From assembly GCA_942159475.1 (NCBI GenBank), contig OW804096.1:126346941-126410940 (forward strand): a stretch of DNA of 64,000 bases. The letters run 5' to 3'. The position numbers and the translations under genes are program-made. The DNA comes from Sthenelais limicola (Eukaryota; Annelida; Polychaeta; Phyllodocida; Sigalionidae). Positions 54,556 to 60,500 of this stretch are shown here, piece by piece. Below the pieces are notes generated by a model. The model worked only from the letters and a program-made list of their open reading frames with translations, had not been told where the DNA came from and searched no databases. Position 1 is the first letter of the stretch, and each line of letters starts with the position of its first letter.

Positions 54556-57500
54556 GTAAGTCAAACCCTGGTATAATTGTGGCAAGTGCGCCCATTCCAT
54601 TGTCAACTATCGATACAGATTTTATTATCAATGTTATCAGACAAACAGGTTACATATCTAAAGATACGTAGCTTTAACTTAAGAATGTATTGAACATTTG
54701 ATATTCTATTTACTATTTTAAAGTTATATATTTTATATCTTGCTACTTATATGTCGCCCCAATCATTCAAAATTCAGGTCTGGTACAAGGATGGAGCGAC
54801 TTTCACAATTCAAACTGTCTAGAAAACAGGGCAGCAATTGTGCATTTATTCGAGTGGAAATGGACAGACATTGCAAACGAGTGTGAAAGGTTCCTAGGAC
54901 CGAGAGGATATTGTGGCGTACAGGTAAAAAAAACTAAAACGGATTAAATTGGTTTGGTTGATGTTACTCGTAAGTCTGACAAATTGAATCGACTTCTATT
55001 ACAATAGGCCAATGTGAAATGTACGTATTCTATGATGGGTCTCTCCTGCATGTGCACATGCTGTCATAACCCAAGATGAGCGTTCTTGGTGAGAGTGGCA
55101 CCAGCCCGATGACATATCCAGTTCCATTCATTAATACTAGCAGGATGCTATTGTGAAAAATTGATTGATGGCATATGTAACATGATTTTTTTCTCAGGTA
55201 TCTCCAGCTAATGAACATGCAGTTCTTCCCCAAGACCAGCATCCGTGGTGGCAAAGATATCAACCAGTGTCTTATAAACTTCACTCCCGTTCTGGTAATG
55301 AGGAACAATTTAGAAACATGGTGGAAAGATGTCACAAAGTAGGCGTGAGGTACGATAATAGATGATTTGGGCAATTTAGAAATAGTATCCTTTCGGATTT
55401 GAAAAAATCTTACTAGAACACACGTACGTAGAAGAATTTATTTCTATAAGAGTCTCATCCAAAGAGATCCAAGATACTCTTGTAAGGAGTATAGATCAAA
55501 TAAACCAGTTTATCAATCAATGAACATAATTTGTATTTTTCAAAAAATATATTGGTTTTATTGTGTGTCACGATTAATCATCCAGGATTTACGTTGATAC
55601 TATCCTCAACCATATGGCTGGAGTAGGAAGGATTGGCCATGGATCAGGAGGGTCATATTTCGACTCCAGCAAGGGAGAGTTCCCAGGCGTTCCATTTACG
55701 ATGCCAGACTTCCATGATTGTACAGGTTGTGGCGGCTGTTGTTGCATCAACTCGTAAGTCTACACAAACAAAACATCCAGAAACCTGTTTGCTGCGGCAT
55801 TATACTTTTTTCTCAAGATCAGTTATCTTTCTGTAATTTACTGGTAATTTACTTCCTCTTCCCCCATTGCTTATGATTATATCTAATTTATTCAGGCGAC
55901 TGTTATTGTGTTGGATGTCATTGGTATTATATTCCTCCTTCTGGTTGTAAACGTGATATATTACTAGCCGCTATAAAGTGTATTATATGATATGCTAGAT
56001 TCTATTCTACCACCTGGCATCCTATACCTAACATTATCATATTAAGTATATAAATCCTCCATATTTCTCTCCCGTATCCCTATCCATATAGACGTTCTAT
56101 GTCTAAGTCGACATAAATCAAAACAGATATGTGTGTAATTTATATCTATGAATGTCTCTATGGTTGTTTATCCTTCTGAATATTTCGTTTGTAATCCCCT
56201 TTGTATTCTTGTATGATATCCTGTTATAATGTCTTATATCTATCGATGAAATTAACTTCATTATCCTTAAATTACAGTAAATTAAATATTAAGTTCAGCC
56301 TTCGACTGATCGTATCATTGCATGATGGGTTTTTTTCTATTTAAGATGGACTGATTTGGTCATGGTCAGGAGATGCAGACTAAGTGGCCTGATCGACATG
56401 AATCAAAAGAGGGACTATGTGCAAGAGAAACAGGTAGGTTTAGCAGAACAGGTTCGTACACAAGACACAAAGAATACATATGAAGAAGAGCCTCTCTCTC
56501 TGTATGGCTGTGCATAACAGTGCATCAGATCCTCCTGGCCCTAATAAGGCATATTATATAACATGAATTTAACTACAAAGGCGAACGCAGCTGCGAATTT
56601 TGATGGGAGCATCCCTGATGAATACGTGCGCAACATAATTATTCGGCCCGTCGCATAAACTTCTTTGTTCTCATACATATGCATGGTATGCATTGTTATC
56701 CACACTTTGTTATGCACATCTATAAACTGCTAGCACATGATTGTAACTTAAGAAAGGGTCGGACTCATAACCCTACAATATTAGGAGTCATCTTCACTGA
56801 TTTGTAAACAATAATCAAAATAAAGGTGTATCAACGGATCAATCCCACCTTCATATTGGTATGTATTAATGAACGCACAATCATTTCTTAGAAAATATCA
56901 TCTTTTAGAAAAGGAACGTCCCTATAATTAATTTAATGTGAATCAATTTCTAACACTCTCAGTTATCCCCCAAACGGTTAGGCCTATAGGTGTTAATCCT
57001 TGTCTAAGATTAGCACTCTTTAGTAAGTGAATAATCAATTCCCCACCTACTCTATATAATTCCAACCTGCTGCCTTCTCTTCTACAGGCAGAGTTCCTGA
57101 ATAACTTGATAGACATCGGTGTGGCTGGTTTTCGTATTGATGCGGCTAAGCACATGTGGCCTGAAGATATAGAAATGCTGTGGGGGAAACTCAATAATCT
57201 AAACACTAAATACTTTCCTTCGGGAAGCAAACCATTTATGTTTTTGGAGGTGAGATCTGTATTTTAATCTTTATATATCGTGATCATATAATATTCCCTT
57301 AAAACAAGTCCTTTGTAAACATTGATTTCATTCATGGTTTTATTATAGGCATATTTATTCAACAAAAGAAAACATCACATTCAATAGGTCACTATTTACT
57401 TTTTAAAATAGGTTATTGATCAGAGTCAAAATGCAGAAATCCGTGCTAGTTGGTATGCACATTTAGGAAGAGTCACTGAATTCAGGTATTTACTATTCAC

Positions 57501-60500
57501 TATTTACTTTTTAAAATAGGTAATTGATCAGAGTCAAAATGGGGAAATCCGTGCTAGTTGGTATGCACATTTAGGAAGAGTCACTGAATTCAGGTAGGTG
57601 AATTTGTTGCCAGCCATGTCGCCACACAGAACTTTCTATTCTCCATAAATTTCATAGATAAACCTCAATGCTCTCAATTTCCACGTTCAGACATTATTTG
57701 TTTCTTTAAGATCAATATGTGTAAAGTGCATGGGCGTCTATATGCATATATATATTCTACTGTACAGGTATTGTATAAAAATCAAGGAAGCTATCCACAA
57801 CCTAGGAATGGTTCGAGGAATATGGGACGAAGGCTGGGGCATGCTCAAACCTGAAGATGCATTCATATTTGTGGACAACCATGACAATCAACGTGGGCAT
57901 GGGGGTGGAGGTGACCCTCTGTATTTTGGTAAACCTCGCGATTACAAAAAGGCACAGGTAACAGTTCAGTTTGTATGATCGAAGTCACTGACAAATGCTG
58001 AAAAACGTTTCATACAAAGCGAAGCTATATTTGAGCAGTGAGATGTGAGATGTAAGACGCTCACATGTTTATTAATATTCCCTCGGGTTTTCCATACAAG
58101 GCACCCTTTAAACATAACTATAATTCCATTGTGCAAATAAATTGAAAACCAAATTATTTGATGATAATAACTAAAACTTCAGTCACTCTATGTATGATAT
58201 ATCCCAAAATCTAACAGGAGCAAGCTTGTAGCACCTCATAAAAAGCAAGGGCTCTCTTATAACGTATAATGCTTGTCAAATTGTGCATCTTGATAATATA
58301 TACCACTATTATATTAACCCCCTTACGTATCTCCCCAGGCTATATCCCTAGCCAATACCTATGGCTATCCAAGGTTGATGAGCAGTTATTACTTCAAAGA
58401 TGGCAAACAAGGACCTCCTCATCATGACGACTGGAGTACTAAAGATGTTATTATTAATGAGGACGGGACTTGTGGCAATGGTTGGGTATGCGAACACAGA
58501 TGGAATGCCATTGCAGGAATGGCTGGATTTGCTGGTGCTGTGGCTGGTACAGATATGCAAAACTGGTGGCAGAGCGGAAACCAGGTAATTTGCATACTTG
58601 ATTCTATGTATGCTTCGATCTGTTGCATTAGATCTAATTTCTCTCGAATTTGGTTGAGGCGTTAAGGCTTCTCAAGTGTATTACTCTCCAAATTCAGAAT
58701 ATAGAATTAGTGTATGGCATGATGATAAATTACAATCTTCGCCCTTCCATTACTCAGACATTGTTCTTCATTTTTACAGATAGCATTCTCAAGGGGTAAC
58801 AAGGGCTTCTTTGCTATCACTAATCATGGCTCCATGACAGCCACTCTACAAACAGGTTTACCAGCAGGAGACTATTGTAACGTAATACAAGGTTGCCCAA
58901 CGAATTCTGGTTGCAGAGGTGACACCATTCGAGTAGGTAGTAATGGAATGGCCGAAATAAGAATAACCAACTCTGAAGAGCCAATATTAGCTATTCATAT
59001 AGGTAAGCAAATCAATCACTTCATATCAAAATCCTTAAGAGGTATTTGTACCTAATAGATACAATCAGACATTTTAAAACAACCACCTTGAATTAAATAT
59101 ACGATTGCTAAATTGTACTTTGTGGAACACTATATTCCTGTAGATGGTAAGTTTATATAAGTACATATAATTATAATCATTTTTAACATCAGCCATGGCT
59201 AGAAAATGTCAAGGAATGTTACCTCCATTGTGCCAATACATAATTAATATTTTAGAATCTTTTAGATTTTAGATTTTTTTCTTCAGGTATTAACATTACA
59301 TCACATAATGACATTATTTAAAGTCAACCCTGATCGATGAAGACAATTCGAATTAAATTACAAGCATAGCAAGTGTATAAACGATATTGCCATTATTAGA
59401 AAAATTACTCACACAAGTAAAAAGTGACCTCTCCCTCTGCAAAAAAAAGTGACCTCTCGTCACATCAAGCAGATTTTTCAATTTTCCTTTTCTACCTCTT
59501 GAATGTATAGTGCTATCTACATAGAGAGTAGAAATCTTCTAACATAGCGATAAAATCCTTTACTAAAAACATAATCAAATTTTAGATTGCCCTAAGCTTT
59601 GGACGCACGCACTCTTATTAGGGAGATTTAGCAATCACAATGCACCAACACAACATTAACGCATCCACTAACTATTTGTACATTACTACCGCTGTGGGAA
59701 TATCTTGAGAGGCACTAGGCCGAGAGCATCTACGCCGAGGGTGCATTTAGCTGGCCTTCCATTTGTCCGGTAGCGGTAGCGGCAGCGGCAGCGGTAAAAA
59801 TCGCGCATATTGAATTCTGAAGAGACCCATCCATTCACACGGTAACGGCAGCGGTAGCTGAAAAACGGTAGCGGAAAAACCCTTTCGCGACATGTAGCGA
59901 AAGGAACCGCTACCGCAGCCGCTGCCGCTACCGCTGCCATTACCGCTGCCATTACCGGACAAATGGAAGGCCAGCTTTAACTGGCCTTCCATTTGTCCGG
60001 TAGCGGCAGCGGCAGCGGCAGCGGTAAAAATCGCGCATATTGAATTCTGAAGAGACCCATCCATTCACACGGTAACGGCAGCGGTAGCGGCAGCAGTAGC
60101 GGAAAAACCCTTTCGCGACATGTAGCGAAAGGAACCGCTACCGCAGCCGCTGCCGCTACCGCTGCCATTACCGGATAAATGGAAGGCCAGCTTTAGTGTT
60201 GTTTTGGTGCGTTGTGGTTGCTAAATCTCCCTATTAACAGAAACATATTACTTTATCAGAGGTGATTACAACAATAAACTCACAGGCAAACAAAGGAAAA
60301 TTAGAGTGAAGTTAATATATTTTATAATTATATCCCAGGTGCTCGTTCTGGAAGCGGTGACTGCAGTAGTCCTGACTGGAGCCCTCCACCTAGTGTGCCA
60401 ACAAGCCCTCCAGTAAGTACTATGACGCCTCGCCCCTCATCCTCAAAAGCCACAGCACCTTCTGTAGGCCCAACACTTCCAGGATCAACGCTGCCAAGTA

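Follow-up and report, generated by a model that had tools for sequence, protein, structure and literature searches.

The locus described here raises the question whether a duplicated exon in an alpha-amylase gene of the scale worm Sthenelais limicola gives two enzymes, or one enzyme and a by-product. The gene lies in a stretch of 64,000 nucleotides, referred to below as the window, which is taken from the forward strand of contig OW804096.1 (C3 in the genome coordinates below; positions 126,346,941 to 126,410,940; assembly GCA_942159475.1). The COX1 protein of the assembly is nearest to those of polychaetes: of 120 listed matches the best is a Phyllodocida cluster at 94%, and its named neighbors include the scale worms Alentiana and Branchipolynoe.

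The host gene, AmyA, has 14 exon positions between 54504 and 61905 that together encode 745 residues in an open frame. The initial annotation identified it as an alpha-amylase, and this is borne out by two Pfam domains above cut-off, PF00128 (38.8 bits, residues 92-229 only) and PF02806 (49.1 bits), by the match of residues 14-500 to solved animal amylases, and by Glu256, conserved in every one of the 121 aligned rows (120 homologues and AmyA). Exons 13 and 14 can be joined in six ways that keep the frame open (744 to 746 residues), and one of these was picked. The exons other than exon 7 are as follows.

54504..54555, + strand: exon 1, with start codon and, by eye, a hydrophobic start (open frame, GT donor)
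54778..54923, + strand: exon 2 (frame test)
55198..55349, + strand: exon 3 (frame test)
55586..55753, + strand: exon 4 (frame test)
56346..56433, + strand: exon 5 (frame test)
57088..57249, + strand: exon 6, whose last residue is Glu256, catalytic by homology (frame test, alignment)
57768..57957, + strand: exon 8 (frame test)
58339..58584, + strand: exon 9 (frame test, comparison with AmyB)
58780..59002, + strand: exon 10, where the amylase core ends (frame test, Pfam)
60339..60617, + strand: exon 11, encoding a linker rich in Pro/Ser/Thr and the first part of the C-terminal extension
60878..61020, + strand: exon 12
61227..61315, + strand: exon 13, end picked among the six open-frame joins
61680..61905, + strand: exon 14, with stop codon; start picked among the six joins by the preceding TAG

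Past the amylase core, exons 11-14 (60339-61905) add a C-terminal extension of about 240 residues that includes a Pro/Ser/Thr-rich linker and has no Pfam match at the default threshold. The extension is also present in the neighboring gene AmyB, and many of the listed homologues have a similar total length. Intron 10 carries at 59746-60207 a GC-rich element in two tandem copies (period 230, 96%), which is rich in CGGTAG/CGGCAG, is bounded by long inverted repeats whose 48-nt arms are 88% complementary, and is possibly of foldback or MITE-like type.

Exon 7 is present in two copies of 74 nt, 7a and 7b, and comparison of the copies confirmed their reported positions and the three mismatches between them (57414 T / 57522 A; 57434 C / 57542 G; 57435 A / 57543 G). 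The duplication had been given as 108 bp long. The direct repeat unit is 100 bp, and the remaining eight bases of the period, TTTACTAT, are unshared and stand at the repeat join, the whole locus spanning 208 bp. With three differences and 97% identity between the units, the view that the duplication is young was upheld. Its features are listed below.

57389..57488, + strand: first copy of the 100-bp direct repeat (sequence comparison)
57412..57485, + strand: exon 7a, Ala264, donor CAG/GTATTT (sequence, frame, donor scoring)
57486..57519, + strand: 34-nt gap separating 7a from 7b; if it is retained, a TAG falls in frame at its end
57489..57496, + strand: unshared 8-nt junction filler TTTACTAT
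57497..57596, + strand: second copy of the 100-bp direct repeat (sequence comparison)
57520..57593, + strand: exon 7b, Gly264, most likely the ancestral residue, donor CAG/GTAGGT (sequence, frame, donor scoring, alignment, tree)

The junction creates an extra copy of the 8-mer TATTTACT at 57487, 14 bases 5' of the copy in the second repeat (57501), a further copy being at 57393. The extra copy would fit templated end-joining, in AT-rich sequence where this 8-mer occurs nine times in the window. A 36-base exon probe, at up to three mismatches, matched just 7a and 7b in the window, with zero matches expected from 100 shuffles. A repetitive element as the source of the exon repeat was rejected with a 231-bp probe, which had a single match, the exon 7 locus, in a genome-wide DNA search (1,130,627,326 bases, 161 contigs) that omits very common words.

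The duplication has been seen in one assembly, wpSthLimi1.1, and might in principle have arisen there by the tandem joining of two alleles or by base-calling error. Such an artefact appears highly improbable: the 45-fold HiFi data were obtained from DNA sheared to 12-20 kb, and reads of this length would cover the whole 208-bp repeat; the assembly has a QV of 59.9 and its curation removed 210 haplotypic duplications (PMC10352628). The 8-nt filler would also be unexpected from a false joining of two alleles.

AmyB is located a few kb downstream of AmyA (end of AmyB exon 2 at C3:126412629, end of AmyA near C3:126408845). It has one 74-nt exon 7, the lengths of its exons 3-10 equal those of AmyA, and its frame is open across exons 2-10. 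The two proteins are identical at 392 of 482 aligned residues. Exon 9 stands out in the DNA comparison, with 95.6% identity (218/228 aligned bases) between AmyA 58339-58584 and AmyB (L051 9587-9832), as against 87.5% in exon 3 and 69-79% in the rest of the aligned exons, and introns 8 and 9 have no comparable match; the likely cause is a gene conversion of local extent between the two tandem neighbors.

Seven further amylase-like loci are found on C9, C4, C1, and at C3:50.5 Mb (L035, L036, L038-L042, L045-L048), a large set for a worm of a family described as carnivorous (PMC10352628). The count comes from a protein query with 19 rows, excluding the weak row C2:128091149 (E 3.77), and exon duplication at these loci was checked by the 231-bp DNA probe alone. 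A PF00128 scan of the genome, with 32 matches and none in AmyA or AmyB, was superseded by the protein query; 30 of its loci were given, L002 being maltase-like by eye, and AmyA matches the 30 weakly (best E 0.042).

AG and GT adjoin both copies of exon 7, and according to the frame test 7a alone or 7b alone leaves the frame open, while both or neither shifts it. The sequence features expected of a mutually exclusive pair were found: adjacent similar exons of equal length in the same frame, GT-AG borders, and no in-frame stop. The gap of 34 nt is shorter than any intron of the 7b form (n = 13, 174-1336 nt), and reading through it meets an in-frame TAG in a retained 182-nt composite exon consisting of 7a, gap, and 7b. 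A survey of human mutually exclusive exons regards donor-to-branch distances <50 as a possible source of steric hindrance (PMC5740500). In silico, the short gap and the frame shift form a barrier to the inclusion of 7a and 7b together, and the either-or logic put forward in the initial annotation withstood each of these comparisons. The gap and the frame shift speak for exclusivity, but not for use of both copies. When three substitutions were placed at random in the unit, AG, GT, and frame survived in 78% of 20,000 trials, and hence the intact frame and splice sites of both copies cannot be taken as evidence for use or selection.

Both copies had also been credited with working splice sites. 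AG and GT are in place at each, and the acceptors are the same over 23 bases, but in the 7a donor positions +4 to +6 come from TTTACTAT, which makes the two donors unequal. On a general matrix the 7b donor scores 6.52 (tied highest) and the 7a donor 0.87 (lowest) among the 14 donors of AmyA, and pairing with U1 is -12.7 vs -7.3 kcal/mol, the matrix frequencies, the U1 end, and the branch-site consensus being general ones. The AmyA donors of exons 3, 4, 11, and 13 pair with U1 less well than 7a, and two of the 10 AmyB donors located score below it on the general matrix (exon 3, 0.44; exon 4, 0.21). On a matrix made from 23 donors of AmyA and AmyB, 7a reaches 3.89, above 9 of the 23. The 7a donor is weaker than that of 7b, yet looks usable.

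Branch-like sites in the 60 nt 5' of the acceptor are found at -28, -21, and -14 for 7b, and at -55 and -14 for 7a. Being the first of the two to be transcribed and having retained the native upstream intron, exon 7a might be favored, and this counts against 7b as the main exon. Selector/docker RNA structures are one known mechanism of mutually exclusive splicing, though not a required one; a single fold of 57250-57767 gave no excess folding (z 1.55), with 94 of 100 shuffles folding equally well or better.

The composite exon had been brought up solely as an argument for exclusivity, and may itself be a real product. It contains the in-frame TAG and links the first acceptor to the top-scoring donor, as would be expected if the duplication were a neutral or mildly harmful structural variant, perhaps of one allele, that reduces the amount of enzyme. 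The loss would be buffered by AmyB, open in exons 2-10, and by the seven further loci, and a divergence of 3% would be compatible with a segregating variant. This explanation is nevertheless unlikely, as the three differing bases mean that the duplication is not brand new, and the remainder of AmyA is open.

The two forms would differ at residue 264, which is Ala in 7a and Gly in 7b; its position eight residues beyond catalytic Glu256 was confirmed by translation and alignment. Glu240 of mammalian amylase contacts the substrate, and column 264 of AmyA is presumably the equivalent position. Together with the alignment, this contact supports the placing of residue 264 in a loop lining the substrate site. 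Among the 120 best homologues of 5241 matches (7990 candidates scored), column 264 is Glu in 67, Gly in 53, and Ala in none, and since these are the best 120 of 5241, rarer states are possible. A region-limited protein search for Ala-bearing relatives returned two candidates and no match; it missed known Gly-bearing relatives too, and is therefore uninformative on Ala.

A tree of 27 chosen rows places AmyA, AmyB, and 11 relatives (P0001-P0010, P0016) in a 13-row clade with support of 100/100. AmyA and AmyB are grouped with 100/99, and the 11 relatives, weakly, with 81/78. All 11 relatives have Gly at column 264, and AmyB has Asn. With Gly in 11/11 relatives, the ancestral state is most likely Gly, and hence 7b, Ala and 7a being derived. 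The order of changes is not fixed at the DNA level; an ancestral GGA would imply one change per copy. Conversion by the paralogue was rejected as the source of the differences between 7a and 7b, AmyB having third states at both codons (GTC, AAT), and for the same reason AmyB neither explains nor polarises them at the DNA level. The exchange of Ala and Gly is conservative and probably alters activity little.

If the pair were functional, both exons would be included at useful levels, and the Ala264 and Gly264 amylases would differ somewhat in substrate handling and perhaps serve in different tissues or with different diets. Either copy, with its AG, GT, and open frame, fits singly and not with the other; the gap is far under the 50-nt steric criterion of the human survey (PMC5740500); column 264 also varies between the paralogues; and the 7a donor is inside the range of AmyA and AmyB donors. 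This is unlikely all the same, given that Ala is seen in 0/120 listed homologues, that copies almost identical leave little to regulate, and that intact exon features are expected by chance at the rate of the substitution trials. The stronger claim of the initial annotation, that AmyA makes two enzymes by using both exons, is so far unsupported: 7a with its Ala is derived, its donor is altered, and the composite exon may be a real product. It is doubtful that AmyA gives two regulated enzymes differing only at one residue of the substrate loop.

We favor, at a probability of about 0.6, a young exon duplication whose layout forces an either-or choice, with 7b as the main exon and 7a as an incipient or minor alternative or a source of dead transcripts. 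In one of the two neighboring alpha-amylase genes, a 100-bp piece containing exon 7 and its 3' splice site would have undergone a recent tandem duplication, accompanied by the insertion of 8 nt at the junction. The 34-nt gap is probably too short to be spliced, and one pre-mRNA would then have three possible products, 6-7a-8, 6-7b-8, and the 182-nt composite exon, the last being presumably a dead message. Having the ancestral residue and the original donor, 7b is most likely the main exon, and the derived 7a would be an incipient alternative that is rarely used, or that causes a partial loss through the composite form.

Alternative exon use in an amylase gene is known from mouse Amy1, and this it would share with AmyA; its alternative first exons concern the 5' leader rather than the coding region. 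In the titles and abstract openings of the papers listed by literature searches, with most subscription journals outside coverage, no described counterpart among amylase coding exons was found. The animal-type alpha-amylase genes of an earlier survey belong to the same enzyme family as AmyA and have a highly variable exon-intron layout, and that survey, which deals with 55 animal species, states that alternative splicing is absent (Da Lage et al., 2011, PMC3096672). Amylase and splicing terms appear in separate contexts in passages of four other animal papers (PMC6611504, PMC6700725, PMC11270918, PMC8956072). These results agree with the novelty suggested in the initial annotation. Against it, a weevil paper has in its supplement a table of glycosidases that may be alternatively spliced (PMC12027728), and database models named 'alpha-amylase-like isoform X1' to 'X3' are among the listed homologues (Tachypleus, Daphnia, Pomacea, Macrobrachium, and others). 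Predicted amylase isoforms thus exist in several invertebrates.

Better known systems offer a comparison. The human survey counts 377 clusters of mutually exclusive exons (60%) with lengths not divisible by three, and 57 (9%) with donor-branch distances under 50 (PMC5740500). Its tandem pairs, as well as U2AF1 exons Ab/3 (PMC5224494), are like 7a and 7b in being adjacent and homologous and in fitting singly, and in the survey pairs joint inclusion is likewise barred by frame or spliceosome distance (PMC5740500). They are, however, verified by transcripts, whereas 7a and 7b are known from genome sequence alone and are three bases and one residue apart.

If both exons did serve to make enzymes, AmyA would be the first animal alpha-amylase gene with mutually exclusive exons in its coding region. 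The pair would be only a few mutations old, and the origin of such pairs could be followed from its beginning. In itself, a duplicated exon whose copies are 97% identical and whose breakpoint can still be read shows how exclusivity can come at once from geometry and frame, preceding any functional difference. Exon 7 of AmyA is a simple case in which to ask whether such duplications are at first useful, neutral, or costly.
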